A DNA stretch of 48,331 nt from positions 1 to 48,331 of the forward strand of contig CALGYB010000146.1 in the NCBI GenBank assembly GCA_937935075.1, written 5' to 3'. This document shows positions 2,727 to 48,320 of this stretch, one piece after another. Every line of letters starts with the position of its first letter. Positions within the stretch are counted from its first letter, which is position 1. Origin of the DNA: an uncultured Roseiflexus sp. (GTDB lineage: Bacteria > Chloroflexota > Chloroflexia > Chloroflexales > Roseiflexaceae). The notes below the pieces were generated by a model, which had not been told where the DNA came from, searched no databases, and saw only the letters and a list, made by a program, of their open reading frames with translations. A program made the position numbers and the translations under genes.

Positions 2727-3770
2727 ATGTCGCTGATCGATCAGTTGAATCAACTCGAGCACGAGGCGCTGGCGGCGCTGGCGCAGATCACCGATCTGAC
2801 GGCGCTCACCGAGTGGAAGAACTCCTACCTGGGTAAGCAAGGGGCGCTTTCGCGTCTGAGTCGGGGGCTTGGCGCCCTGCCCGCAGACGCACGTCCGGCT
2901 GCCGGGGCGCGCTTCAACACTGCGCGCGCCACACTCGAACAGGCGCTTGAACGCGCCGAAGCGCAGTTGAAACGCATGGCGCGGCAACACGCCTTTGAAG
3001 CCGACCAGGTCGATGTCACCCTCCCCGGACGCGCGCCTGCCGTCGGACGGTTGCACCCCACGACTCAAATGCTGCGCCAGATTTATGCCATATTGGGAGA
3101 GATGGGGTTTCAGGTCTGGGAAAGCCCGGAAGTCGAAACTGACGAGTTCAACTTCCAGTTGCTCAACATGCCGCCAGACCATCCGGCGCGCGATATGTGG
3201 GATACGTTCTACGTCGAGACAACGCCTGGCGACGCGACGCTTCTGTTGCGCACCCATACGTCGCCGGGGCAGATCTATGCGATGCGCGCCAATGCACCCA
3301 AACCGGTGCGCGCCATTCTCCCCGGCAAGTGCTATCGCTACGAACAGGTCACTGCCCGTCACGAGATGCAGTTCTATCAGGTTGAAGGGATTGCGGTCGG
3401 GGAGCAGATTTCGTTTGCCGATCTGAAAGGGACGCTGGTGGCGTTCGCCGAACGGTTGTACGGCAAAGGGGTCAAGACCCGTTTCCGTCCCAGTTACTTC
3501 CCCTTCACCGAGCCAAGCGTCGAGTTTGATATCGAATGCTTCCTCTGCGGCGGTACGGGATGTCGGGTGTGCAAGCATTCGGGATGGCTCGAAATCCTGG
3601 GCGCGGGCATGATCCATCCGACGGTGCTGCGCAATGGCGGGTACGACCCGGAGAAGGTCAGCGGGTTTGCGTTTGGGATGGGTCCGGAGCGGATGGCAAT
3701 GCTGCGCTACGGGATCGATGACATTCGCTGGTTCTTTAGCGGCGATGAGCGCTTCCTGCAACAGTTCTGA
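2727..3770 (+). CDS. pheS: Phenylalanyl-tRNA synthetase alpha subunit
   Basis: A 347-residue class II catalytic subunit that activates phenylalanine and charges tRNA-Phe as an alpha2-beta2 enzyme. The N-terminal coiled-coil tRNA-binding arm spans about residues 1-90. The catalytic core includes RTHTSPGQIYAM, the motif 2 region CYRYEQVTARHEMQFYQVEG and motif 3 FGMGPERMAML. A CFLCGGTGCRVC segment at about residue 271 puts four cysteines in two CxxC pairs, suggesting a bound metal. The start at 2727 has GGAGG at 2713-2717 and lies downstream of the attenuator. Its stop overlaps the next start (TGATG), so the following membrane-protein gene is tightly coupled to it. Confidence 0.95.
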   Translation: MSLIDQLNQLEHEALAALAQITDLTALTEWKNSYLGKQGALSRLSRGLGALPADARPAAGARFNTARATLEQALERAEAQLKRMARQHAFEADQVDVTLPGRAPAVGRLHPTTQMLRQIYAILGEMGFQVWESPEVETDEFNFQLLNMPPDHPARDMWDTFYVETTPGDATLLLRTHTSPGQIYAMRANAPKPVRAILPGKCYRYEQVTARHEMQFYQVEGIAVGEQISFADLKGTLVAFAERLYGKGVKTRFRPSYFPFTEPSVEFDIECFLCGGTGCRVCKHSGWLEILGAGMIHPTVLRNGGYDPEKVSGFAFGMGPERMAMLRYGIDDIRWFFSGDERFLQQF

Positions 3771-5596
3771 TGAAAACGCACTCACCGCTCATCGTGCTGG
3801 TTGCGCTCTTTCTGGCGCTCTGCGTCCTGTACAATCTGGCGACGCCGCCTGGTGAGGGACCGGACGAACCGGGGCACGCGGCATATGTGTTCTTCCTGGC
3901 GCGCGAAGGAAGACTGCCGGTGCAGTGTCTGCCGCCATGTGTTAGTGACGTGCCGGGATCGGGGCATCATCCGCCGCTCGCCTATCTGCTGGCGACTCCG
4001 GCAGTGCTCTGGCTGCCGCAGTCGTTGCGCACGTTCGACCTGCCCGGCAACTCGCGTTTCACCTGGGCAGGCGGCGATCAGGTGAATGCTGCTGCGCACG
4101 GGAGTCGTGAGCAGTGGCCCTGGGACGCGCAGGTGTGGGCATGGCGCCTGGCGCGTGGCGCGTCGAGCCTGGCGGGTGCGGCAACGGTCATCTTGACATA
4201 CCTGACGGTGCGCGTGTTGCACCGTCACACCGATAGCGCGGCGAACCGCGACGCAACAGCGCTACTGGCGGCGGCGCTGGTCGCGTTCAACCCGCAGTTC
4301 ATTTTCATCTCGTCGCTGATCAGCAACGACGCGCTGCTGGCGGCGCTCGGGGCAGCGCTGCTCTGGCTGGTCGTCAGCAGTCCGCGGTCGCTGCTGCGCG
4401 CCATGCTGATCGGAGTGGTGCTGGGGCTGGCGTTGATCACCAAACAGAGCGCGTTGATTTTTGTGCCGTTCGTGTTCACATGGGGTGTGACGGGGGGGGT
4501 GGGCGCGGCGACGGATCGCGGGGCAACCGCAGGTCGGGGCAACCCGGCGGGTCGCCCGCAGGTGATGATCGCGGTTCTGGTGTTTGGCGCGGCGCTCGTC
4601 GGTGGCTGGTGGTACCTGCGGAATTGGCAATTATATGGCGATCCGCTCGGTTTGCAGGCGTTTCAGGCGGAATTTACCACGCAGGCGTTTGAATGGACAA
4701 ACCCGGCAGCCTGGATGGGCGCATTGACGACCCTGTACGAATCGTTTTGGGCGCGCTTTGGCTGGATGAATCTTCCGGCGCCGCCATGGACGATGGTGGT
4801 GTACGCTGCGTTGCTGGCGGCAGCGGTCGTCGGATGGGTGTGGACCCTGGTTCGCTCGAATGCAGTGGCGTGTCGGTGGACCTGGCAACTGGCGGCGCCG
4901 CCCCTTCTGGCGCTGGCATGGGTCATAAGTTTCGCCTTTACCGCCGGATTGGTCGCCTGGCAGGGGCGTCTCCTGTTCCCGTCAATCGCGGCGATTGCGG
5001 CGCTCCTGGCGCGCGGGTTGAGCGTCTGGCTCCGCCAGCGTGTGTCGGTGAGGCTCTTCATCGTTGGGATGGCAGGCATTGCAGCCTGGCTGCCGGTTAG
5101 CGTCATTCAGCCGGCGTATCCGCCTCAGACCCTCGCTGCATCGGCGGCGCACGCCTGGGAGGGGAATGAGACGTATGCGCGTTTCGCGCGTTCTACCGAA
5201 CCCGGCGCGGTGATCCGTCGCTGGCGACTCGAGGGAACGCCGCGTCCTGGCGCAACAATTGAACTCACGCTGCTCTGGCACGCATTGTCGCGCCAGGACC
5301 GCGACTGGTGGACGTTCGTGCACCTGGTCGATGCCGACCGACGGATTGTGACGGAGGACAACCGTGAGCCGCGCGATGGCGCGTATCCCATGTCGCAGTG
5401 GGTCGCAGGAGATTGGGTCGAGGCGCGTTATACGCTCGCCATTCCTGCCAATCTTCCGCCTGGCGAATATGCGCTGTGGGTGGGGCTGTGGGACCCGGCG
5501 ACTGGACGGCGCGCGGCGTTCTTCGATGATGACGATGTGTCTGATCCTGAGAGCGATCATGTCGTGCTGACCACCCTGATGATAACCGGACCATAA
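3770..5596 (+). CDS. DUF2142-like polytopic membrane protein, putative glycosyltransferase, between pheS and pheT
   Basis: A 608-residue integral membrane protein. The N-terminus is one hydrophobic helix followed by PPGEGPDEPGHAAY, the acidic loop motif seen in DUF2142 and related GT-C glycosyltransferases that use polyprenyl-phosphate sugars. About ten further hydrophobic segments run to about residue 450. A soluble domain of about 140 residues follows, with LTLLWHALSRQDRDWWTFVHL and PPGEYALWVGLWDP, a beta-rich module often attached to Chloroflexota GT-C proteins. It overlaps the pheS stop by one base and ends 9 bases before pheT, so it is translated within the phe operon. Bases 4516-4560 carry a dispersed repeat in frame, giving a Gly/Arg-rich loop. 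Its substrate is unknown. Confidence 0.75.
   Translation: MKTHSPLIVLVALFLALCVLYNLATPPGEGPDEPGHAAYVFFLAREGRLPVQCLPPCVSDVPGSGHHPPLAYLLATPAVLWLPQSLRTFDLPGNSRFTWAGGDQVNAAAHGSREQWPWDAQVWAWRLARGASSLAGAATVILTYLTVRVLHRHTDSAANRDATALLAAALVAFNPQFIFISSLISNDALLAALGAALLWLVVSSPRSLLRAMLIGVVLGLALITKQSALIFVPFVFTWGVTGGVGAATDRGATAGRGNPAGRPQVMIAVLVFGAALVGGWWYLRNWQLYGDPLGLQAFQAEFTTQAFEWTNPAAWMGALTTLYESFWARFGWMNLPAPPWTMVVYAALLAAAVVGWVWTLVRSNAVACRWTWQLAAPPLLALAWVISFAFTAGLVAWQGRLLFPSIAAIAALLARGLSVWLRQRVSVRLFIVGMAGIAAWLPVSVIQPAYPPQTLAASAAHAWEGNETYARFARSTEPGAVIRRWRLEGTPRPGATIELTLLWHALSRQDRDWWTFVHLVDADRRIVTEDNREPRDGAYPMSQWVAGDWVEARYTLAIPANLPPGEYALWVGLWDPATGRRAAFFDDDDVSDPESDHVVLTTLMITGP
4530..4560 (+). repeat. Dispersed palindromic repeat read in frame inside a coding sequence
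   Basis: GGGGCAACCCGGCGGGTCGCC within this stretch is one base different from GGGGCAACCCGGCGGGTTGCC at about 20777-20797, which is intergenic. Related GTAGGGGC...GCCCC units occur at 8334-8365, 8564-8611 and 17746-17775. Here the unit is translated as part of a Gly/Arg-rich stretch in a loop between membrane segments. Confidence 0.6.
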
Positions 5597-5605
5597 GGAG
5601 TTCAT

Positions 5606-8107
5606 ATGCGCGTTCCTCTATCCTGGCTGAAAGAGTTCGTTGACATCACCCTGTCGGTCGAAGAACTTGCCGAGCGACTGACCCGCGCAGGGCTGGAGTG
5701 TGAGGGGATCGAGCGGATTGGCGTCGAAGGCGCCGATCTGCCGTGGGATCCGGAGAAGATCGTGATCGGCAGCATCCTGGAAGTGCGGCAGCATCCGAAT
5801 GCCGACCGTCTGGTGCTCGCGGACGTGGACTACGGCGCCGGCGCGCCGCACACGGTCGTCACCGGCGCGCCCAATCTCTTCCCCTACAAAGACAAAGGGC
5901 GATTGCCGCAGCCGCTCAAGGGGGTCTTTGCGCGCGAAGGCGCAGAATTGTACGACGGTCACGCCGAGGGTTGGGTGAAAATGCGGCTGAAGGGGCGACC
6001 GGTGCGCGGCATCATGTCCGACGCCATGCTCTGCTCGGAAAAGGAACTCGGTCTGTCTGAGGACCACGAAGGCATTCTGATCCTGCCGGATGATGCGCCG
6101 GTCGGGGCGCCGTTGCGCGACTACCTTGGCGATGTGGTGCTGAAGTTCGATGTATTGCCGAATATGGCGCGCTGCCTGTCGATCCTCGGTGTGGCGCGCG
6201 AAATCGCGGCGCTGACCGGCTCACCGCTGCGCATGCCGGAGATGACCGTCGTTGAGGATGGTCCGCCGGTCGAAGGGCGCGTCCGGGTGACAATCGAGGA
6301 ACCGGACCTCTGCCCGCGTTTCACGGCCACCTTGATCGAAGGGGTCACAATCGGACCGTCGCCGCTCTGGATGCAGCGCCGCCTGACGATGGCGGGCATG
6401 CGCCCGATTAACAACATCGTGGACATCAGCAACTATGTGATGCTCGAACTTGGCGGACCCAACCACATGTTCGATGCCGACCAGGTGGCGGATCAGCACC
6501 TGATCATTCGCCTGGCGCGCCCTGGCGAGCGTCTGGTGACGCTCGACAACAAAGAGCACAATCTGGATGCTTCGCTTGGCGGCGGGATGCTGCCGCTGCT
6601 GGTGTGCGATCCGCACGGACCGCTCAGCCTGGCGGGGGTCATGGGCGGAGCATCGAGCGAAGTAAGCGCTACAACGACCCGCGTGTTACTGGAAGTCGCG
6701 GTATGGGATCCGACAATCATCCGACGAATGGGGACCGCGCTGCGGGCGCGTTCGGAGGCGTCGAAGCGCTTTGAGCGCGGCGTGGATTATGAACTGCCGC
6801 CGCTGGTGCAGCGCCGCGCTCTGTCGCTGTTGCAACGGATCGCGGGCGGCAGTGTGGCGCAGGGTATGGTGGACAACTATCCGCGCCCATGGCAACCGGT
6901 GATCCTCGATCTGACGCCGCGCGAGGTGCGCCGGATCGTCGGCATTTCGCTCAGCGCTGCCGAGATCGCCGATCTGCTGCGTCCGCTGGGGTTCGCCTGC
7001 GATCTGATCGACAACGGTGCAGCGGTGCGGGTCACGGCGCCGAGTGTGCGGCGCGATATAACGATGCTTGCCGATCTGTGCGAAGAAGTGGCGCGCATAT
7101 ACGGGTATGACCGCATTCCTCTGTCATTGATGGCGGACGCGCTGCCCGAACCGCGCAACAACCCATCGCTGGAACTGGAACTACGGGTGCGCGATCTGCT
7201 GGCAGGCGCGGGATTGGACGAAGCAATCACCTACTCGCTGACCAGCATGGCAGCAGTTGCAGCGGTCAATCCGGCGGATGCCGACGCTTCGCTCTACCTG
7301 CGGCTGGCAAACCCGCTGACCCCGGAGCGCGAGTACCTGCGCCGGTCGCTGCTGCCGACGCTGCTGGATGCGCTGGCGCAGAACCTGCGCGAACGCGAGC
7401 GGGTGCTGTTGTTCGAGATCGGTCGCGTCTACCTGAAACGCGCCCCCGGTAGCGACGATCCACGTCCCGCAGAGCCGCAGCGGCTGGCGCTGGCGCTGGC
7501 AGGACGGCGTTATGAGCGCTCGTGGCATACGCCGGACGAGACGGTGATGGATTTCTTCGATCTGAAAGGGATTGTGGAGGTGTTGCTGACACGCCTGAAC
7601 ATCGCTGGTGTGCAATATGTCCCACTCACCGACGACCCGCGTTTCCATCCTGGGCGCGCGGCGCGGCTCGAACGGGATGGAAGCGTGCTCGGCGTCATCG
7701 GCGAACTGCATCCCGATGTCTGCGAGCGCCTGGCAATTGCCGCGCCGCGCGCGATGGCTGCCGAACTCGATCTCGAACTGATCGGTGCGCTGGTTGAGTC
7801 GGCACGCTACCGCGCCATCTCGCGCTATCCGGCAACCACGCAGGACCTGTCGCTGGTGGCGGCGGTCGAGGTTCCGGCGGAACGGGTTGCAGCGACTATT
7901 CGCAAATACGCTGGCGCGCTGCTCGAGTCGCTCACCCTTTTCGATGTGTACGAAGGCGAGCAGGTCGGCGCCGGCAAACGCAGCCTCACCTATCGCCTAG
8001 TGTTCCGTGCGCCGGACCGCACCCTTAACGATGCCGAGATCGCCAAAATCCGCCAGAAGATCGTGCGCGGCCTGGAGTACGACATCGGCGCAACAATCCG
8101 GGGGTAG
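5606..8107 (+). CDS. pheT: Phenylalanyl-tRNA synthetase beta subunit
   Basis: An 833-residue subunit of the usual long bacterial type. Domains in order: the opening MRVPLSWLKEFVDI; an EMAP/OB tRNA-binding domain (about 45-165) with HPNADRLVLADVDYG; the B3/B4 editing domains (about 220-400) that hydrolyse mischarged Tyr-tRNA-Phe, with NNIVDISNYVMLELG; the B5 domain; a catalytic-like B6/B7 module; and the C-terminal anticodon-binding FDX-ACB domain, with YPATTQDLSLV and a DVYEGEQVGAGKRSLTYRL stretch. AAGGAG precedes the ATG by 6-7 bases. It lies in the same operon as pheS but separated by the membrane-protein gene, so it should share T-box control. Confidence 0.95.
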   Translation: MRVPLSWLKEFVDITLSVEELAERLTRAGLECEGIERIGVEGADLPWDPEKIVIGSILEVRQHPNADRLVLADVDYGAGAPHTVVTGAPNLFPYKDKGRLPQPLKGVFAREGAELYDGHAEGWVKMRLKGRPVRGIMSDAMLCSEKELGLSEDHEGILILPDDAPVGAPLRDYLGDVVLKFDVLPNMARCLSILGVAREIAALTGSPLRMPEMTVVEDGPPVEGRVRVTIEEPDLCPRFTATLIEGVTIGPSPLWMQRRLTMAGMRPINNIVDISNYVMLELGGPNHMFDADQVADQHLIIRLARPGERLVTLDNKEHNLDASLGGGMLPLLVCDPHGPLSLAGVMGGASSEVSATTTRVLLEVAVWDPTIIRRMGTALRARSEASKRFERGVDYELPPLVQRRALSLLQRIAGGSVAQGMVDNYPRPWQPVILDLTPREVRRIVGISLSAAEIADLLRPLGFACDLIDNGAAVRVTAPSVRRDITMLADLCEEVARIYGYDRIPLSLMADALPEPRNNPSLELELRVRDLLAGAGLDEAITYSLTSMAAVAAVNPADADASLYLRLANPLTPEREYLRRSLLPTLLDALAQNLRERERVLLFEIGRVYLKRAPGSDDPRPAEPQRLALALAGRRYERSWHTPDETVMDFFDLKGIVEVLLTRLNIAGVQYVPLTDDPRFHPGRAARLERDGSVLGVIGELHPDVCERLAIAAPRAMAAELDLELIGALVESARYRAISRYPATTQDLSLVAAVEVPAERVAATIRKYAGALLESLTLFDVYEGEQVGAGKRSLTYRLVFRAPDRTLNDAEIAKIRQKIVRGLEYDIGATIRG

Positions 8108-8700
8108 AAGAAGGTTGCAGGTGAGGAAGGTTGCAGGTGAGGAAGGTGCGAGGGTTAAGGGTGAGGAGGCAGGAGAGACAGTGCACCGCACCGTCGCCGA
8201 ATCGTTGCATTTGAACATAGGAATGTTGACGCCGTTATAGGACGACGCAGCGGTCGCCGGTACCAGTGGTCGTCCCGCACCCGGAGAACCGCGCCACCGT
8301 CGGGGCGACCCGGCGACACGCAGGATCGCCAACGTAGGGGCAACCACAGGGGGTTGCCCCATCCGTCCCTGCCCGCCGGCGGCGCGTGGCGGGGCAGGCA
8401 CGGGGGACCTGCCTCGACGAATGCGGGTGCGGTGGCGGTAGGGGCGCCCCTTGGGGGCGCCCGTCGTGGGCAGGCACGGGGACCTGCCCCGACGAATGCG
8501 GGTGCGGTGGCGGTAGGGGCGCCCAACTGTGTCCCATCATTGCATCCCGTCGTTGTCCTGCCCGTAGGGGCGACCCGCGCCGTCATCGGGGCGACGCGGC
8601 GGGTCGCCCCTACCTGTGATTACTCCACGATTGCAGGGCATTGCCATCGTCGGCGCGCCCTTCGTGATCGCCCGGCCCTGTCATCGCCCCGCAACCCTCT
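8108..8700. repeat. Gene-free stretch made largely of GC-rich repeats
   Basis: No convincing gene is present. A 16-base unit AAGGTTGCAGGTGAGG is repeated in tandem at 8111-8126 and 8127-8142. A unit of about 56 bases that begins GCAGGCACGGG and runs through GACGAATGCGGGTGCGGTGG occurs at about 8394-8451 and again at 8470-8524. Palindromic GTAGGGGC...GCCCC units occur at 8334-8365, 8443-8471 and 8564-8611. These look like the small dispersed repeats seen elsewhere in the window (17746, 20774). Confidence 0.8.
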
Positions 8701-8730
8701 CACTTCTTGCCTCGCACAAGTGTGCGGATG

Positions 8731-8739
8731 TGGTACAAT
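8731..8739 (+). promoter_or_regulatory. Extended -10 promoter for the Uma2 family gene
   Basis: TGGTACAAT gives an extended -10 (TGn followed by TACAAT at 8734-8739). There is no good -35 at the right distance. The start codon is about 70 bases downstream. Confidence 0.45.
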
Positions 8740-8808
8740 AACGCCAGGCAGAGTCGCACAACCGCCGCGCCCCGCCCGGCAACTGAACGTACCAGGGAGG
8801 ACCTGTAT

Positions 8809-9765
8809 ATGACACAAACGACTATCCCCGCAGCGCCGCCGGACGCTGCGCCAGCCGACGACCCCTTCCGCTACGGCTGGCGCTACGTGCCGCGTCCGAC
8901 CCCCGACGATCCCCATCACTTCGAACAGGTTCCGCTGACGCTGGAGGATGTCCTGCACCCGGAAGTGGGAGATTTCATCGTGCACAGCGACCGCCACGAG
9001 ACCGACCGGATGTACCTCACCGAAGTGCTGCGCGCCCGCCTGGAGCAATCCGGCGCAGCGATTGTGTTGACCGATGTGCGCATTGCGTGGGATATTCCCG
9101 ACCTGCGTCCGCACGGACCGGATGTGACGGTCATTCCCGGAGTAGGGGAACGGCAGAACTGGAGCACGTTCGACGTGTCGGTCGAGGGCGTGCGTCCGGC
9201 GCTGATCATCGAAATTACTTCGCCGGAGACGCGCGTGAATGACCTGGAGCGCAAGGTGGAGCATTACGCGCGCGCGGGGGTGGCGCAGTACGTGATTGTG
9301 GACGATCTGAGTCGCGGTCGTCGGGAGCGACGCTTGCGCCTGCTCGACTACCGGCTGGAGGGAGGGGCATACCGGTTGCATCCGCCAGATGCTGCGGGGC
9401 GGGTGCATCTGGCAATCGCCAACCTGTGGCTGGGCATCGAGCGGGATCACGTTGTCTGCTACGACGAACACGGCGTACCGTTCGGTAACTACGCGACCGT
9501 CGTGTGGCAGGCGGCGCAGGAAGCGGAGCGGGCGCAGCGCGAAGCGGAGCGGGCGCAACGCGAAGCGGAGCGGGCGCAGCGCGAGGCGGAAGCGCGTGAA
9601 GCCGAAGCACGCGCGCGCCTCAAAGCCGAGGAACGGGCGCAGCGCGAGGCGGAACGGGCGCAACGCGAAGCGGAAGCGCGCGAAGCCGAAGCGCGGGCGC
9701 GCGCCGCAGCCGAAGAGCGGCTGCGCGCCCTCGAAGAGGAACTGCGCCGTCTGCGCGGCAGATGA
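8809..9765 (+). CDS. Uma2 family (DUF820) putative endonuclease with coiled-coil tail
   Basis: A 318-residue protein. Residues of about 30-200 match the Uma2/DUF820 PD-(D/E)xK-like fold: PDVTVIPGVG, PALIIEITSPETRVNDLERKVEHYARAGV and QYVIVDDL, containing the Asp, Glu and Lys expected in the nuclease core. From about residue 235 the chain becomes a highly charged Ala/Arg/Glu repeat (AQREAER units, 7 residues) that should form a long coiled coil. AGGGAGG at 8794-8800 sets the start at 8809. Uma2 genes are strongly expanded in cyanobacteria and Chloroflexota; the cellular role is unknown. The tail suggests oligomerisation or a scaffold role, which is inference. Confidence 0.8.
   Translation: MTQTTIPAAPPDAAPADDPFRYGWRYVPRPTPDDPHHFEQVPLTLEDVLHPEVGDFIVHSDRHETDRMYLTEVLRARLEQSGAAIVLTDVRIAWDIPDLRPHGPDVTVIPGVGERQNWSTFDVSVEGVRPALIIEITSPETRVNDLERKVEHYARAGVAQYVIVDDLSRGRRERRLRLLDYRLEGGAYRLHPPDAAGRVHLAIANLWLGIERDHVVCYDEHGVPFGNYATVVWQAAQEAERAQREAERAQREAERAQREAEAREAEARARLKAEERAQREAERAQREAEAREAEARARAAAEERLRALEEELRRLRGR
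9510..9710 (+). repeat. Coding 21-base tandem repeat specifying a heptad coiled coil
   Basis: Near-perfect copies of a 21-base unit that includes GAAGCGGAGCGGGCGCAGCG encode successive AEREAQR-like heptads in the C-terminus of the Uma2 family protein. Copies differ at a few third positions and include GARE/AEARARL variants. Confidence 0.75.
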
Positions 9766-9768
9766 CCG

Positions 9769-11340
9769 TTACCTGCGCTCACGCAGCGCCGCTAGCAGTT
9801 GCTCGACAGGCGCCAGCGCTGCAATTAGGCGGTCGCGCTCGTCGAGCGGAAGAAATGCCACCTGACTGGTTGGAAGCGCTTCGATCAACTGGATCGCGCG
9901 TTCGCGCACAATATCGGCAGAGAGTGGGGTCTGTGGGGATACGGTACGCCGCGCCAGGCGCTGGAGGAACTCCTGTACTGTTGACTGATCTCCTGGCAGC
10001 GGGGGCCAGCGGTCGGCATCCGCCCAGAGTGGCAGGTCGCGCCCGGCGAGCGCCAGGCGAATCTCGCGCTGCTCATATGCCGCCGTCAGCACATCGAGCG
10101 CTTGCGCTGCGTCGCTGTCGGTTAGCCAATGGGTATTTGCCGCCACCACCGCCCAGCGTCTCCCGCCGATCGTGTTCGCCAGCAGGTCGAGGTGCCAGAC
10201 CAGTGGAACGGCATCAGGCGACGCCAGGTGTCGCCACAGTTCATCGTCGCCTTCGGCGGCGAGCGCAGCAGCGAGTGTTTGCAGCAGACGCAGACCTGGT
10301 CGCGGTTCGATGTCGGGCGGTGCGGCGGCATGCCAGATGACCTTCTGTCCGCGGGTGTGGAGGTGCGCGGCAAGCGCGGCGGCCAGCGTGAACGATGCTT
10401 CGGGGTCGCCCCAAATGAGCGCCAGACCATCGCGCCGTAGCGATGACACGTACAGGTCGAGTTCGGCTTCGTAGCCGGTGGTTGATGCAGATGGCGGCGC
10501 ATACAGCTGCGCCGGCGGCGCCGGCGGCGGCAAGGCTTCGATAGCGGCAGGCAACAGAGATGCAAGGCGCTCCAATGCCTCGCGTTTGGCGCGGCTGTAG
10601 GTGCTCGCGCTGAGCGCCAGCGCTTCCTGGAGATCGGTGCGCGCCTCGCCCGCCTCGTATTCGCCCGCGATGATCAGGTAGTGCCGCCAGCGCGGGTCGT
10701 TCAACACCGGACCAGCATCGTCCGACGGACGCAGTTGTTCAATGGCGGTGCGCAGCGCCATTTGCAGGCGACGTCCGCGCTGTTGAACATCAGTTTCATC
10801 GGTCAGGAGCAGTTTTGCCAGATCGCTGCGCCCCAGCGTGAGCGGCGGATCTTCAGGAAGTGCGCCAAGCGCCTCGCGCAACAGACGCACCGTGGCGTTG
10901 TGGGATCCTGCACTGCTCTCCTCGTCGCGCAGTCGTGCGAGCAAGCGGTAGAAGGTGCTGCGCGGCACATCGAGAACCCCTTCGTCCCGCAATCGCGCCT
11001 GCACCCTGCGCCAGAGTACATGTGCGGACAAACCCGGTTCAGCGGCAAGTTCTTGACGAAGAATACGCGCCAGGGGGCTGTTGCGCGCAAAGTGCCCTCC
11101 GCCGCGCTTGCGACTTTTGAGCGCTGCCAGACCGCCGCGCCGAAAGGCTTCGCGCAGCCGCCGGAGACTCTCGCGGCTGACTCCAAATGTGCGCGCCACT
11201 TCCCCCGGCGAGCGCCCTTCGCGCAGCAGGGCAACCAGCATGCGGTATCGCCGTAGCGCCGCTTCGTCGTTGCCAAACCGTTCTGTCAGGTCAGCGCTGG
11301 TGAGGCGCGGGAGTTCGAGTTCGGATGTCGCCCCCTTCAC
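9769..11340 (-). CDS. HTH protein with STAND-like region lacking a P-loop
   Basis: A 523-residue protein not assignable to a named gene. Residues about 25-75 form a helix-turn-helix of the transposase/homeodomain-like type (RSPGEVARTFGVSRESLRRLREAF); a second follows at about 90-140 (STFYRLLARLR). A middle segment with LALSASTYSRAKREALERLA resembles the linker before NTPase domains in Chloroflexota STAND proteins. Residues about 285-480 look like an NTPase core (LALIWGDPEASFTLAAALAAHL, then WAVVAANTHWL), but the Walker A glycine-lysine is absent, so it is probably inactive or only structural. The start is GTG 11340, with AAGGAG seven bases upstream; an ATG at 11403 would run through a repeat element. 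It lies downstream of the CHAT gene on the same strand. Confidence 0.65.
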   Translation of the reverse strand: MKGATSELELPRLTSADLTERFGNDEAALRRYRMLVALLREGRSPGEVARTFGVSRESLRRLREAFRRGGLAALKSRKRGGGHFARNSPLARILRQELAAEPGLSAHVLWRRVQARLRDEGVLDVPRSTFYRLLARLRDEESSAGSHNATVRLLREALGALPEDPPLTLGRSDLAKLLLTDETDVQQRGRRLQMALRTAIEQLRPSDDAGPVLNDPRWRHYLIIAGEYEAGEARTDLQEALALSASTYSRAKREALERLASLLPAAIEALPPPAPPAQLYAPPSASTTGYEAELDLYVSSLRRDGLALIWGDPEASFTLAAALAAHLHTRGQKVIWHAAAPPDIEPRPGLRLLQTLAAALAAEGDDELWRHLASPDAVPLVWHLDLLANTIGGRRWAVVAANTHWLTDSDAAQALDVLTAAYEQREIRLALAGRDLPLWADADRWPPLPGDQSTVQEFLQRLARRTVSPQTPLSADIVRERAIQLIEALPTSQVAFLPLDERDRLIAALAPVEQLLAALRERR

Positions 11341-41901: not shown

Positions 41902-44313
41902 TTACTCCCCCACCAGCACCAGCCGCTCACCCTCGATTGCGCCGCTCGACCGCATGGGTGCGTCTTCCACCCGTTGCCAACGCTCAAGATAGTCGCTGTA
42001 GCGGCTGCTCAGCACATTGCCCGATTGCCCGGTGGTGTGCATGAACCGCGATGCATTCAGGTCGCCAAGGTCGATAATCTGGCGATATGACGGCGCATTG
42101 TACTGAAGGTATGGTTCGGTGATGCGCACCGGCGCGACGTTGACCGTAAAATTGTCGCCGCCGTTGGGAATGCGCCGCTCGAAGACGCCGCGCAGCGCCC
42201 CAACCTGGCTGAACGGAGTGTGCGGAAAGACCGCCTGATGGACGCGATCCCAGCGCCAGCGTGCCGGATTGCTTTCCCCCTGCGCATCCGCCATCGCCTC
42301 CAGCCCGCGTGTCAGCGCCTTTGCCAGTATGGTTCCACAATCTTCCATGACCGTCGGCGTTGTGACATCATCGCACCACTCACTCCGCCCGTCGAGCAAC
42401 ACCGTGCGCAGCGCCATCGCTGGAAAATCGCGCTCGCCCTGGTACTGACCCGCGAAGAGGTCGCGCAATTCATCGGCGAAAATCGTCTCGATGACAGCAT
42501 AATAGTATGCCTGATAAACCGCTGCAGCGGCGCTGTCGCCACGCATGGCGCCGTCCCAGCCGCGCAACAACTCGAGAGCGGCGGTTTCGCGCGGTCCGGC
42601 GGGTTGAACGTCGAGCAGCGCGGGCAAAAGTTCGCGCGCCTGCACCGAGACTACATCACCCAGCATCGCGCGCATGTCAGCAACGGTCAGCCGGTTTCCC
42701 TGCTCGATCATCTCGACAATGCGCTGCGCCCGGTACGGCGCTGCCCATGATGTTCCCAGCAGGTAGGGGTACTCATCACCGACTACCCGGTTATTCGCGG
42801 TGGCGATATACCCCTGCGGAGGGTTGTAGCTATGAGGCAGGTCTTCGAACGGCACATACCCGACCCATTCATACTCATCGGTCCACCCCGGCACAGGCAG
42901 CGTCCCGTCGCCGTTGCGACGGATCGGGAGCGCGCCTGGTGCGTAGTAGCCGATATTGCCCTCGACATCGGCGTAGACGAAGTTCTGCATCGGCGCCTTG
43001 TAATCGCGCAGCGCTGCGGTAAACTCCTCCCAATTGCGCGCCTGGTTGATGTTGAGAAAAGCGCGGATCGTTGCGTCCTCCTCATCGAGCGCCGTCCAGC
43101 GGAATGCCAGCGTCTCGCCAGTGCCAGATGTCACATCGCTGATGATCGGACCATGGCGGGTGATGCGCACCGTCAACGTCACCGGCTCGGCATCCTTGAC
43201 GTTGATCGTCTCGCTGATCAGTGTGACCGGTTCGCGCCTGCCGTTATACTCGACATAATTCTGGGCGTCGATCCGTTCGATATAGAGGTCCTGCACATCA
43301 GGACCGGTATTGGTCACGCCCCAGGCGATGCGCTCATTATGGCCGATGACGACCGCCGGCAGGCCCGGAAAGGTGGCGCCAATGGAATTGATCGCACCGC
43401 CCTGTATATGTGCCAGATACCAGATTGAGGGAATGCGGTTGCCGAGGTGCGGATCGTTGACCAGCAACGGCTTGCCGCTCGCGGTGCGCGCCCCGCCGAT
43501 CACCCAATTGTTCGAGCCGGCCAGCCGGTTGCCCAATCCGGTCGTCAGATGCGCCGTCTCCCAGAGTTCGAGCATCGCGTGCGCCGTGGTGGATTGGATC
43601 GTAACGTTTGGCCTGGCTGCCGACGTCGCAGGCTGGCTCAGCGCGCCTTCAGGCAGGATCAGCGGACCGTCGGCGGTATAGGCTGGCATGAGAAAATCGG
43701 CGTCTTCCGCGCCAATCCGGGCAATCAGCAGCGAACGCATCATCTCGTCGTTCCAGTTGCCGCCGAGGTCCCACGCCATCATCTTCGCCCAGACGAGTGA
43801 GTCGATTGGCTGCCATGGTTCGGGCTGCACGCCAAGGATGAGGAACTCCGGCGGCAGGACCGGGTTGGTGGCAAGAAAGGCATTCACACCCGCTGCATAG
43901 GCTTCGAGCATGGCGACAGTATCGGCGTCGAGTCGCTCATAGGCGCTGCGCGCGGCGCGGGTCACGCCGAGTGTGCGCAGGAAGCGGTCGGTATTGAGCG
44001 TGGTTGCGCCGAAGATCTCGGAGAGTCGGCCATGGCCGATGCGACGCTGTACTTCCATCTGCCAGAGCCGTTCCTGCGCATGGACGAACCCCAGCCCGAA
44101 GGCGACGTCCGTTTCGGTTGCGCCGGTGATATGCGCCACGCCATCGCTATCGCGCACAATTGTTACCGGACCGCTAATCCCGCTCACCCGGATTTCGCCG
44201 CTTGTCTGCGGCAGCGAGCGACGCAGCCAGAGGTAGCCGCCGCCGGCGCCGAGCGCCAGCACAATGACCAGGACCGACGCCACCCAGAGGAGAATGCGTT
44301 TCAGCAACCGCAT
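41902..44313 (-). CDS. Penicillin acylase family Ntn-hydrolase
   Basis: An 803-residue precursor. A membrane-anchoring N-terminal helix (about 8-30) is followed by the alpha chain, a spacer, and the beta chain that starts at the catalytic serine in LAGSNNWVIGG (Ser about 267), exposed by autoproteolysis. Further family marks are DPHLGNRIPSIWY, GIPAVVIGHNERIAWG-like FPGLPAVVIGHNERIAWG and PNFVYAD-like QNFVYADVEGNIGYY. Substrates of the family include beta-lactams and acyl-homoserine lactones; the true one is unknown. GAGG precedes the ATG. Confidence 0.9.
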   Translation of the reverse strand: MRLLKRILLWVASVLVIVLALGAGGGYLWLRRSLPQTSGEIRVSGISGPVTIVRDSDGVAHITGATETDVAFGLGFVHAQERLWQMEVQRRIGHGRLSEIFGATTLNTDRFLRTLGVTRAARSAYERLDADTVAMLEAYAAGVNAFLATNPVLPPEFLILGVQPEPWQPIDSLVWAKMMAWDLGGNWNDEMMRSLLIARIGAEDADFLMPAYTADGPLILPEGALSQPATSAARPNVTIQSTTAHAMLELWETAHLTTGLGNRLAGSNNWVIGGARTASGKPLLVNDPHLGNRIPSIWYLAHIQGGAINSIGATFPGLPAVVIGHNERIAWGVTNTGPDVQDLYIERIDAQNYVEYNGRREPVTLISETINVKDAEPVTLTVRITRHGPIISDVTSGTGETLAFRWTALDEEDATIRAFLNINQARNWEEFTAALRDYKAPMQNFVYADVEGNIGYYAPGALPIRRNGDGTLPVPGWTDEYEWVGYVPFEDLPHSYNPPQGYIATANNRVVGDEYPYLLGTSWAAPYRAQRIVEMIEQGNRLTVADMRAMLGDVVSVQARELLPALLDVQPAGPRETAALELLRGWDGAMRGDSAAAAVYQAYYYAVIETIFADELRDLFAGQYQGERDFPAMALRTVLLDGRSEWCDDVTTPTVMEDCGTILAKALTRGLEAMADAQGESNPARWRWDRVHQAVFPHTPFSQVGALRGVFERRIPNGGDNFTVNVAPVRITEPYLQYNAPSYRQIIDLGDLNASRFMHTTGQSGNVLSSRYSDYLERWQRVEDAPMRSSGAIEGERLVLVGE

Positions 44314-44355
44314 TGTTGCCTCGCAAACAGTTCAACATCGACGGGGATGGAGGTC

Positions 44356-44385
44356 ATTATACCACAGATGTACTGCATTTATTAA
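44356..44385 (-). promoter_or_regulatory. Promoter for the penicillin acylase family gene
   Basis: On the minus strand TTAATA (44380-44385), 18-base spacer and TATAAT (44356-44361), with a TGG extended -10. Confidence 0.55.
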
Positions 44386-44422
44386 GATTTCACCTTATCA
44401 CCCCATAAATGATTATTCCGTT

Positions 44423-44431
44423 TGCTATACT
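44423..44431 (+). promoter_or_regulatory. Extended -10 promoter for the toxin-antitoxin pair
   Basis: TGCTATACT gives TGn plus TATACT (44426-44431); the reconstructed toxin start is 36 bases downstream. It lies in an AT-rich patch shared with the divergent acylase promoter. Confidence 0.5.
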
Positions 44432-44466
44432 CAAGTGCCGATCTGCACGCCGCTCAGGGCTGCTCT

Positions 44467-44764
44467 ATGCGCTTCCGTTTCGCCGATAGAAAGCTCCAGG
44501 CGCTCTCCACTGATAGGACGGGGTGCTGAGCAGTACGAGCAGAGCGTGGTTAAGGGCTTCTTTCGCGTCATGGCTGTTATCCGGAATGCACCCGATACAC
44601 GCGATTTTTACAGCTTAAAGTCGCCGCACTACGAAAAACTGAGTGGCGATCGCGCTGGTCAGCATTCGTTTCGGCTCAACAGGCAATGGCGCCTGATCGT
44701 TCGGATCGAGCACAGTAACGAAGATCCGGAAGTTGTCATCGTCGAGATAGTAGATTACCATTAG
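44467..44764 (+). pseudogene. higB: HigB-type toxin gene with a +1 frameshift
   Basis: Frame one reads MRFRFADRKLQALSTDRTG from ATG 44467 and stops at TGA 44527. In the next frame, from GGT 44522, the protein continues GAEQYEQSVVKGFFRVM...NAPDTRDFYSLKSPHYEKLSGDRAGQHSFRLNRQWRLIV...EIVDYH, which matches the RelE/HigB toxin core and C-terminus. One extra G in the GGGG run at 44520-44523 explains the break; without it the toxin is about 98 residues. Internal starts (GTG about 44549, ATG 44570) could yield a truncated protein lacking the first strand. It may be a mutation, a sequencing error or programmed frameshifting. The antitoxin follows 20 bases later. Confidence 0.75.
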
Positions 44765-44784
44765 AACACGGGAAGAGGCGCTGC

Positions 44785-45879
44785 ATGGATAACGTATATC
44801 CAGCCTGTGCAGTAGCGCCAGGCGAGATCATCAAAATGGAGCTTGAGGAGCGGGGTTGGTCGCAGCGCGACCTCGCCGAGATCATGGGTCGTCCGCCTCA
44901 GGCGATCAGCGAGATTATCCGCGGTGTTAAACAGATTACCCCGGAAACGGCGCTGGAACTGGCGCAGGCATTCGGCGCCTCAGCCGAGATCTGGACGAAC
45001 CTGGAAGCGAGCTACCGCCTTGATCTCGCCCGCCAGCGTGGTGGAAATGGCGGTTCCGAGATTGCAACGCGCAGCAGGCTCTACAGCATGCTCCCGATCG
45101 CTGACATGATCCGCCGGGGCTGGCTGTGCGCGACCGGTGTCGCTGAGGATCTGGAGCGCGATGTTTGCCGCCTGCTGGGTGGCAACCCGGAAGCGATGAT
45201 TGAGGCGGTCAGCCTGCGTCATAGCGTTGCACGTGGTCCTGAGCGCGGCGCTCAGGTCGCCTGGGTATGCCGGGTGCGCCAGCTCGCACTTGAACAGAAG
45301 GTTCCACCTTTCAGTCGCGCAGACCTGATCAAGGCGATTCCGGAGATCCGCCAGCTTGCGACAACACCAGAGCAGGTGGAGGAGGTTCCGCCGCTGCTCC
45401 AGTCGCTTGGCGTGCGCTTCATCATTGTGCCGCCGCTGCCAAAGACTTACATCGATGGCGTGCTCTGCGACGCCGACAGTACGCCGATCATCGGGTTGAC
45501 CCTGCGCTATGACCGGATTGACTCGTTCTGGTTTACCCTGATGCACGAGCTGGCTCATCTGGTGATGGGGCATTGCGCGCTGCATCTCGATAACTTTGAG
45601 GATGAGGAACAGCGCCGCGATGAGCAAGAGCAGGAAGCGAACCGGCAGGCGCGAGCATGGTTGATTGACCAGAATGCGTTCGAGTCCTGGGTTGCCCGCA
45701 CCAGGCCCTACTTCTCACGCAGGGCGATCGAGCGCTTCGCTGCTGACCAGCAGATCCATCCGGGCATCCTTCTTGGGCAGTTGATGTTTGACGGGACTGT
45801 GAGTTACAAGCATCTGCGCACCTTACTGCGTAAGGTCAGCCCATATCTGCGGAAATGGACCGATTCGAGCGGGCGTTGA
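44785..45879 (+). CDS. HigA-like antitoxin fused to an ImmA/IrrE metallopeptidase
   Basis: A 364-residue protein. Residues about 10-75 are an XRE-type helix-turn-helix of the HigA family (GEIIKMELEERGWSQRDLAEIMG, AISEIIRG). The C-terminal half (about 190-310) has the zinc peptidase motif HELAHLVMGH (HExxH at about 254-258), the COG2856/ImmA-IrrE signature, with EQEANRQAR downstream supplying a further glutamate. In ImmA systems the peptidase cleaves a repressor; here it is fused to the DNA-binding antitoxin. It follows the broken toxin gene in the same operon. Confidence 0.88.
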   Translation: MDNVYPACAVAPGEIIKMELEERGWSQRDLAEIMGRPPQAISEIIRGVKQITPETALELAQAFGASAEIWTNLEASYRLDLARQRGGNGGSEIATRSRLYSMLPIADMIRRGWLCATGVAEDLERDVCRLLGGNPEAMIEAVSLRHSVARGPERGAQVAWVCRVRQLALEQKVPPFSRADLIKAIPEIRQLATTPEQVEEVPPLLQSLGVRFIIVPPLPKTYIDGVLCDADSTPIIGLTLRYDRIDSFWFTLMHELAHLVMGHCALHLDNFEDEEQRRDEQEQEANRQARAWLIDQNAFESWVARTRPYFSRRAIERFAADQQIHPGILLGQLMFDGTVSYKHLRTLLRKVSPYLRKWTDSSGR

Positions 45880-45943: not shown

Positions 45944-46311
45944 TGGTGGAGATGGGGGGAGTCGAACCCCCGTCCAGAAAAGTTAGACTCAGGCGTCTAC
46001 AAGCTTAGTCCGTCGTTTGCTGTCGCTCGCAGTCGCACGACGAACAGAGCGACTTTTGAGCCATCCCGCTTATCTTAGCCCGGCGCCGCAGGCGTTCGCC
46101 GGGAGCGCCCCGACTTGCTGACGCTCGAACTTACTCCATCGGGGTGAGAGCAAGGGAGCGGGCTGCTGTTTTGTTAGGCAGCCAGAGCCATCGCCGGCTT
46201 GAAGGCGACGACTTTGTTGTTGTTGGCAGTTATGCCGTTGCCCCTTTAACGAGACTGGGCGGCTCGGCTTGCAACCTGAGACATCCTTCCCTGTCGAGAC
46301 CAGTCATCCCC
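45944..46311 (-). ncRNA. ssrA: tmRNA
   Basis: A 368-base transfer-messenger RNA that rescues stalled ribosomes and tags their products. The 5' end GGGGATGACTGGTCTCGACAG and the 3' end, with GGGGGTTCGACTCCCCCCAT then CTCCACCA, form the tRNA-like domain; 5' GGGGATG pairs with CATCTCC near the 3' end, and CCA is encoded. The tag frame runs from the resume codon GCC (46225-46227) to TAA (46174-46176) and encodes ANNNKVVAFKPAMALAA, ending in the ALAA-type degron recognised by ClpXP. The genes for the flanking proteins end or lie clear of it. Confidence 0.96.
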
Positions 46312-46382: not shown

Positions 46383-48320
46383 CTACTGTGCGTCGAGCAC
46401 AAAAGCAAGAAGTTCAGCGGAGGGTGATGGGACGAAATGGAAACGCACCTGCAGATCTGCCTGGGCTTTCACCAGATCACCAATCTCGTCCGGTGGTAGT
46501 GTGTCCTCATCGACCACATCAACCTCGCCTCTACGCAAGGCTTCAACCGCCTGCTTCGGGGCGAGAAATCGCACAATGATCCTGGGGGTCGCAGGAAATC
46601 CCTTGAAATAGTATGGATTAGCAGTAAACACAATCTCCCTGCCAGGCTCCCAAGAACTGACGACATATGGACCAATGCCGAGGGGTTGCTGATGCACTTC
46701 CGGAAGCCAGTTCCAGTACGGAAGCGGCACATCAGCCAGTCGTTGTCCATTGCTGAGAGTCTGATGGGATGGCTGACGCCCAATCGGTGGGAGGAAATAC
46801 GGATGTTCCGTAGAGTCAGGTTTTGTTTGCCCAAGATAGCCCGGTTTCCAGGTTACCACATACGCGGTATCGCTCGCAAAGTCCACGTCGTGCATCTTCT
46901 CGCAGGGCAGCCGCAAAGTCTCAGCAACAGTGTCCAGACTGCACTGGATTCGATAGGAGAGTGCATAGTCAGATCGAGACACTGGGGCGCCATCCGACCA
47001 CCTCAGCCCTTCCACAAATTCATACCTTACAATCAGTTGGCTCATATCCACGATACCGCCACGATATGTGATCTCATTTCCCTGAGCATCAATGATGCGA
47101 ACACCCGCCTGGAGTTCAACCGCATTGCCGTTCGCGTCCACAATGTGTTCCCCCTCGCCGACTCGTACCACATTGATCTGGATCATGCCATTCTCAATGG
47201 AGGGAATCTGTTTGAGCGTGATTGGCTGGGTATCGTAGCCCAGGCTGGTGGTATCGACCCCGAACGCCAGCGCGCCAATCAGCCGGGTGATATACGAGTC
47301 GTCTGTCAATACGGAAAGGGAAGTCGGCTCCGACCGCTGGGCGATCACGATAGTATCCTTTCCAGGAATGACCCACTGGGCTATGTTCCATGTATACAAC
47401 ATCTCATTTGGAGATGGATTAAAGTTCTGCAGCGCAGTGTTACTGGCATACACAAGGACATGGCTGAAAAGCGGCAGGCTTGGGAGATCGCGGGTGTATT
47501 CTTTCTGCATGATGCGATAGGCGGTTCGCCGGGTTTCCCGTCTGCTGCGGACGCCGGTGACAAGGCGGATGGCCTCATTGACCCGCAGGTTGCACCAGCC
47601 TGTGAAGTTGTCGCCCTGCCAGTTATTTTCTGGCGAAGGGATCTGGTCGCACTCGAAGAATGTGAGCCTGTTGGAATCGGTTGGACTGAGCCAGGTATGC
47701 GCAACCAACTCGAAATCACGGCGCTTGAGAGCCTCCTCAGAGCGCCAGTCGCCTGGAATGTGCCGGTGCTCTATGAGCAGCCCGCAGTTCTTCATTTGCT
47801 CCTTGAAGATGGCGATCCAGGCTGTGCGAAAATCGGCTTCGCTGGCGGTTAGGGTGAGGCGCATTGTTTGGCCCTTCGCGTTGGTGCGATAGGCAGCGCC
47901 CGCAATGAGCCTCCAACCAGCCTCTTCGAACAAAGCCCTGCCCCTTACCGGGTCGAAGGTGTAACTTGTCAGACCTGAGGCATCGTGGGGATAGGCCCGG
48001 TACCCCACAGGAACAAACGACGTCATCTCAAAGGGACTTGTGTCTTCGAGCCAGGGATACACCGCATGGATCAACTCTGCTCGATTGAGGCAGTGAGCGA
48101 TCCCTTGCCGGACGCGCAGGTCGCCTGTAATGGGATGAGGCGCAGCTGAGGCGGAAGAAGGGTGCGGTACAGGCAGACTCTCTGTTGGCGATAGCGATGA
48201 TCTGCTCAACAGGACGATTGTTGCAACGACTATCAGACCGATGAGAAGCGAACCCGTCAGTCTGACTGTTCTTTGCTGACGAGATTTGTTCCTGAACGGG
48301 CTTCGACTCTGATTGGCCAT
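46383..48320 (-). CDS. Family 5 solute-binding protein with swapped halves (apparent circular permutation)
   Basis: A 645-residue protein with one N-terminal membrane helix (about 21-38) and a Ser/Pro tether. Residues about 67-318 start with DLRVRQGIAHCLNRAEL, which in SBP_bac_5 proteins normally lies mid-chain, and run to the usual C-terminal part. Residues about 319-645 start with DTIVIAQRSEPTSL, the normal N-terminal strand, and continue through VRYEFVEGLRWSDGAPVSRSDYALSY and GPYVVSSWEPGREIVFTANPYY to SPSAELLAFVLDAQ, exactly where DLRVRQ would normally follow. The fold would be complete but permuted. Family 5 proteins bind peptides or nickel for ABC import; no transporter genes are next to it here. 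Confidence 0.8.
   Translation of the reverse strand: MANQSRSPFRNKSRQQRTVRLTGSLLIGLIVVATIVLLSRSSLSPTESLPVPHPSSASAAPHPITGDLRVRQGIAHCLNRAELIHAVYPWLEDTSPFEMTSFVPVGYRAYPHDASGLTSYTFDPVRGRALFEEAGWRLIAGAAYRTNAKGQTMRLTLTASEADFRTAWIAIFKEQMKNCGLLIEHRHIPGDWRSEEALKRRDFELVAHTWLSPTDSNRLTFFECDQIPSPENNWQGDNFTGWCNLRVNEAIRLVTGVRSRRETRRTAYRIMQKEYTRDLPSLPLFSHVLVYASNTALQNFNPSPNEMLYTWNIAQWVIPGKDTIVIAQRSEPTSLSVLTDDSYITRLIGALAFGVDTTSLGYDTQPITLKQIPSIENGMIQINVVRVGEGEHIVDANGNAVELQAGVRIIDAQGNEITYRGGIVDMSQLIVRYEFVEGLRWSDGAPVSRSDYALSYRIQCSLDTVAETLRLPCEKMHDVDFASDTAYVVTWKPGYLGQTKPDSTEHPYFLPPIGRQPSHQTLSNGQRLADVPLPYWNWLPEVHQQPLGIGPYVVSSWEPGREIVFTANPYYFKGFPATPRIIVRFLAPKQAVEALRRGEVDVVDEDTLPPDEIGDLVKAQADLQVRFHFVPSPSAELLAFVLDAQ

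Follow-up and report, generated by a model that had tools for sequence, protein, structure and literature searches.

A circularly permuted SBP_bac_5 solute-binding protein and its family in the Chloroflexota

The permuted gene and its predicted fold

The window, that is, the whole stretch of DNA analysed here (48,331 nucleotides from an uncultured Roseiflexus sp.), is an entire contig (G000:C146), one end of which lies 11 bp upstream of the start codon of a gene for a 645-residue solute-binding protein (SBP). The features of the locus are collected in Table 1. The half in first place runs from PHPITGDLRVRQ... to ...TWNIAQWVIPG, and the half in second place from KDTIVIAQRSEPTSL... to ...LLAFVLDAQ. 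The protein has no lipobox cysteine, which most of its relatives carry; instead there is a hydrophobic helix, which in the predicted model probably serves as an uncleaved anchor.

Table 1. Features of the permuted SBP gene and its downstream neighbour (positions in the window)
Feature	Position	Strand	Basis or remark
Whole gene, circularly permuted SBP_bac_5 protein	46383..48320	-	ATG start, 645 aa + stop
Predicted N-terminal transmembrane helix, residues 12-38	48207..48287	-	Helix in AlphaFold model; lipobox scan
Linker from anchor to first lobe, residues 39-59	48144..48206	-	pLDDT <50 at 38-58
C-terminal half in first place, residues 60-318, lobe 2 (domain III)	47367..48143	-	Match to profile 210-350; alignment to NikA 255-499, Z 19.0
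N-terminal half in second place, residues 319-645, lobe 1 (domains I+II)	46386..47366	-	Match to profile 24-206; alignment to AppA 18-264, Z 20.1
Cys77, putative disulfide partner, just past the new N-terminus	48090..48092	-	C in 45/45 permuted sequences
Cys179, putative partner of Cys77	47784..47786	-	C in 45/45 permuted sequences
ssrA (tmRNA), directly downstream of the SBP gene	45944..46311	-	

Pfam finds one family in the protein, SBP_bac_5 (PF00496), as two stretches in swapped order: residues 62-214 correspond to positions 210-350 of the profile, and residues 436-640 to positions 24-206. By sequence the protein belongs to this family, the two stretches scoring 106 bits as encoded against a cut-off (gathering score) of 32.4; when the halves are rejoined in the usual order (residue 320 onward, then 57-319), a single stretch covers profile positions 24-350 at 120.1 bits. 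Because the collinear N-to-C order of the family is absent, in the profile match as in the structural halves, the protein is filed as a permuted variant of SBP_bac_5. A comparison in reversed order with a normal-order protein, L094, gave scores of 226 for the N-terminal and 404 for the C-terminal half, the best of 200 shuffled controls reaching 61 and 66, respectively.

The AlphaFold model, made with an alignment of 36 sequences (pLDDT 82.8, pTM 0.79), has the two-lobed fold of cluster C binding proteins, and each half aligns with the complementary half of solved SBPs with Z scores of 19-20. Model residues 318-633 superimpose on N-terminal halves (AppA 18-264, Z 20.1, rmsd 2.4 over 242 residues) and residues 60-318 on C-terminal halves (NikA 255-499, Z 19.0, rmsd 3.1 over 230 residues); the model of the normal-order control, L094, aligns end to end (NikZ 1-494, Z 34.7, 486 residues). 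The matches listed are cluster C proteins, and whole halves are exchanged, so that the protein does not fall under the permuted cluster B type, a type I fold in which strands of the N-lobe have been transferred to the C-terminus; none of the PDB matches listed has the permuted order over its whole length. A preliminary description of this DNA, made from the letters alone, had proposed a circular permutation of SBP_bac_5 with residues 67-318 as the C-terminal and 319-645 as the N-terminal half. Both the permutation and the placement of the halves are borne out, by the order of the profile matches and the gain in score on rejoining, by the predicted structure with its control, and by the conserved breakpoint and the trees of the separate halves described below; residues 67-318 do not match the N-terminal half of the family. 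The 645-residue open reading frame is a circularly permuted SBP_bac_5 protein.

The cut falls at what we take to be the crossover that leads from domain I into domain III in cluster C proteins, so that the anchor would be attached to the other lobe. A single hinge crossover, that between the strand ...WEHIDFNL and the helix PHPILGDVRVRQ..., would be the place where the chain was opened; hardly any linker would then connect the former C-terminus to what was once the first strand. The fold of the protein is probably still that of a Venus flytrap with two lobes. As for the mechanical consequence, we infer that one covalent hinge strand joins the lobes in place of two and that the anchor leads into lobe 2 in place of lobe 1.

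Spread of the permuted family and changes that accompany it

A second permuted protein is encoded in the same genome (on C147); it is collinear with the window protein over residues 50-640 (40% identity), is a lipoprotein (LAAC), and its gene is directly followed by oppB, oppC, oppD, and oppF. Matches that are collinear over the full length, at 35-42% identity, are frequent among 60 relatives. With a 34-member profile (A1) run against Chloroflexota, permuted proteins were found in 58 of the 158 genomes of the class, a count of listed rows which takes in a few fragmented or frameshifted copies, and, beyond the class but within the same phylum, in another 13 genomes belonging to four families. 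The closest ortholog (L025, from the Chloroflexus MAG DR5_57_13) shares 66% identity over residues 1-645, and a relative from an Anaerolineales MAG (L026) 46%; a contig scan for relatives, which reaches close ones only, returned three loci, all from Chloroflexota. The same breakpoint is conserved across about 70 genomes, and both ends of the permuted proteins are near uniform, with PHPIL.D.RVRQ following a variable linker at the N-terminus and ...WEHIDxNLFxR before the stop codon. All assemblies examined show the permuted order at these loci; the permuted proteins are an old, conserved family in Chloroflexus-type bacteria.

Several members depart from the common form. L099 (3035-5401, minus strand) and L100 (2104-4686, plus strand) encode permuted SBPs with a C-terminal extension of about 150 residues ending in YLPIINR and YLPLLHR, respectively; they have no lipobox, and no permease is encoded in the stretch examined. 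In L102 (G054), L104 (G388), and L118 (G068) a frameshift interrupts the permuted gene, owing to sequencing error or decay. The indel of L104 falls at the joint of both halves and leaves two open reading frames, but the case was rejected as a protein split at the joint, the difference from L110 being a small indel. Three plasmid matches from other phyla, a part of all such matches, were examined and rejected as permuted SBPs: that from Deinococcus is a gene of ordinary size, that from Agrobacterium is a tandem pair read across its junction, and that from Nonomuraea is an unannotated stretch.

Two further features accompany the permuted order. Cys77 and Cys179 are both present in 45/45 permuted sequences and absent from 32/34 normal-order ones; as they are present or absent jointly, they suggest a disulfide near the new N-terminus. 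The only normal-order proteins with both cysteines are L106n and L107n, tandem neighbours of permuted genes, which the C-half tree places elsewhere than the permuted family; the pair is therefore not strictly tied to the permutation. In the permease, the periplasmic segment between TM1 and TM2 of OppB measures 142-148 residues and has two cysteines in all 27 permuted operons compared, versus 77-102 residues and no cysteine in all 14 normal-order operons, that of L094 included. An insertion of about 45 residues with the two cysteines was seen in OppB of L008, L027, L101, L106-L117, and other permuted operons. The TM1-TM2 stretch of E. coli DppB contains a scoop motif, which reaches into the DppA cleft (PMC12136057). 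Insertion and permutation lie on the same branch and correlate through one event, so that the link between them rests on that single event.

Origin of the permutation and standing of the window copy

For phylogenetic analysis 45 permuted and 34 normal-order proteins were split into their halves. The permuted sequences come together as one clade in each of the two trees (support 100/100 for the C-half, 99/95 for the N-half). In the C-half tree the sister of this clade is the normal-order L094 from G048 (100/89). Resolution is poor at the base of the N-half tree, which gives the permuted clade no firm place among the normal-order groups; when L094 was held with the permuted clade, the likelihood rose above that of the free search. 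Compared in reversed order, a permuted homologue (from G045) and L094 show 42% identity for the N-half and 55% for the C-half. L094 has the position at the head of an oppBCDF operon in common with the permuted operonic proteins, and it shares the cysteine pairs 224/243 and 460/473 with the permuted family; the OppB encoded with L094 is sister to all OppB from permuted operons (SH-aLRT 92). L094 differs in its normal N-C order, in a lipoprotein signal that precedes lobe 1, and in the absence of Cys77 and Cys179, and its OppB is without the two-cysteine insertion. As the nearest relative is a normal-order SBP heading an equivalent operon, a single permutation, probably in that operon, is indicated; that the SBP gene of an oppBCDF operon was permuted once is the simplest reading.

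Two standard models account for circular permutation, permutation by duplication and fission-fusion (PMC3320104). By the former, which is the most likely route, the leading SBP gene of an oppBCDF operon would have been duplicated in tandem, the C-half of the first copy fused to the N-half of the second, and the outer halves lost, the family arising once. In two genomes a normal-order SBP gene lies directly upstream of the permuted one (L106, 6953-8953, minus strand; L107, 7128-9347, minus strand), so tandem SBP genes do occur in these operons; on the Agrobacterium plasmid, a gap of 36 bp separates two SBP genes, and a single alignment of the permuted query runs over their junction. No double-length or one-sided intermediate was found among the loci examined, which is why we infer the duplication route, and L025 has no tandem copy within 5 kb upstream. 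Of the earlier suggestion of tandem duplication with loss of outer halves, then, the occurrence of tandem genes could be documented, the double-length stage could not; as an origin it is plausible. The normal-order neighbours L106n and L107n are disfavoured as direct parents, such a C-half tree being 36 log units lower (p-AU 0.068, not formally rejected).

According to the fission-fusion model, the halves would once have been separate polypeptides, or have come from two different SBP genes, and been fused in the new order. The loose placement of the permuted clade in the N-half tree leaves room for this, as does a grouping there with L106n and L107n, which is not rejected (p-AU 0.26), and a protein consisting of little more than a permuted C-half (L096) is encoded in the single-contig genome G003. 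However, both halves are compatible with one normal-order relative, L094, which is sister in the C-half tree (100/89) and raises the likelihood of the N-half tree; the two-reading-frame case, L104, is a small indel; and L096, because it retains the last N-half residues after the C-half, looks like a deletion product rather than a free half. Fission-fusion is accordingly rather improbable. L096 itself (3431-4675, minus strand) comprises the permuted C-half, the last few N-half residues, and a C-terminal extension like those of L099 and L100; its make-up suggests that lobe 1 was lost by an in-frame deletion within the gene. A chance fusion or an assembly artefact joining two unrelated SBP fragments might be suspected from the proximity of the contig end to the start codon, but the permuted order recurs in dozens of independent assemblies, among them the single-contig G003, G045, G047, G162, and G452, and also in the other permuted protein of this genome. 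The conserved family refutes this explanation, the probability of which is negligible; nor does the gene look like a fusion that yields no folded product, given the ortholog at 66% identity, a dN/dS of about 0.30, and the confidently predicted fold.

The window copy, L025, and L026 group together in a small clade. The operonic permuted copies head oppBCDF, and no permease is seen beside any of these three genes, the window copy being readable on its downstream side. At L026 the orphan permuted SBP is accompanied by a gene (7079-9940, plus strand) for a 954-residue fusion of a phosphonate-binding domain (PF12974) with a normal-order SBP_bac_5 domain, which is also found at L105. The ssrA locus can be read in four sister species, and none of them has the SBP gene at that place; similarity to them at the DNA level stops no more than about 40 bp upstream of ssrA, and the gene is therefore not at a conserved site. 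At 55%, its GC content is below the 62% found in the remainder of the window, and its GC3 of 61% is below the 81% of the operonic copy; the window copy was probably acquired laterally. Just past the 3′ end of ssrA lies a pair of genes for a HigB-like toxin and a HigA/M78 antitoxin (44264-45879); the sister species G005 has matches to penicillin amidase and ssrA but none to this stretch, which means that genome-specific material is present on both ssrA flanks.

Relative to L025, the window gene has a dN of 0.21 and a dS of 0.70 (dN/dS about 0.30, similar in both halves), while dN/dS of the operonic copy is 0.06; the window protein is thus constrained, if less strongly than the operonic one, and is under purifying selection. 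The orphan position at a non-conserved site by ssrA, the lower GC content, the dN/dS value, and the permease genes missing from the surroundings of L025 and L026 as well would also fit a permuted SBP gene that was acquired laterally and is now a decaying relic without function, in an otherwise functional family. Such decay is unlikely, though it deserves some weight, for the frame is open at full length with 66% identity to an independent assembly across 645 residues, both halves are equally constrained, the cysteines are conserved, and the fold is predicted with confidence. In the preferred reading, permuted SBPs would probably deliver an oligopeptide-like solute to an OppB/OppC permease, and the window copy would be an orphan paralogue that has kept its solute binding and may either use the OppBCDF encoded with the operonic copy (C147) or act as a receptor. 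Taken as a whole, the explanation we consider highly probable is that of a functional, anchored, permuted cluster C SBP of single origin, likely by duplication, with an orphan copy in the window.

Significance and comparison with known binding proteins

It is an evenly balanced proposition that a single permutation founded a stable cluster C lineage in the Chloroflexota, in which the anchor on the opposite lobe and the one remaining hinge are compensated by a new disulfide and a remodelled OppB scoop. If true, nature has run an experiment on the control that hinge topology and tethering exert over the mechanics of a binding protein and its docking to the permease; as the permuted and the closest normal-order forms share their operon position, hinge topology, tether point, and partner change are directly testable. 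The breakpoint is a natural opening site for permuted sensors of the OppA type. Sequence tools see permuted SBPs as two partial hits, and annotation can therefore misjudge them.

Compared to cluster C SBPs (PF00496: AppA, OppA, DppA, NikA, and the Thermus protein 2d5w), both halves match in sequence and predicted fold, and the operonic permuted copies likewise head oppBCDF operons; they differ in that the halves are swapped, the cut lies at the hinge crossover between domains I and III, and the anchor precedes lobe 2. The transporter architecture is comparable to that of E. coli DppABCDF, with the OppB insertion located where DppB has its scoop, but the order of DppA is canonical (PMC12136057).

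There are few descriptions of ABC binding proteins that are circularly permuted in nature. For cluster C no description was found in the open literature searched, so that natural permutation is apparently undescribed there; the earlier remark that it is not commonly described thus holds for cluster C and has to be qualified for cluster B, from which the one precedent found comes. This is Tp0684/MglB-2 of Treponema pallidum, for which a “cluster Bc” was proposed, a sugar-binding cluster B protein in which the first three strands of the N-lobe now come last and there is an additional, fourth crossover (PMC4990184). Like the family described here, MglB-2 is a naturally permuted, tethered ABC binding protein whose permutation occurs in a family and goes with an altered hinge; in the Chloroflexota, by contrast, the protein is of cluster C, whole halves have been swapped, and a crossover has been cut.
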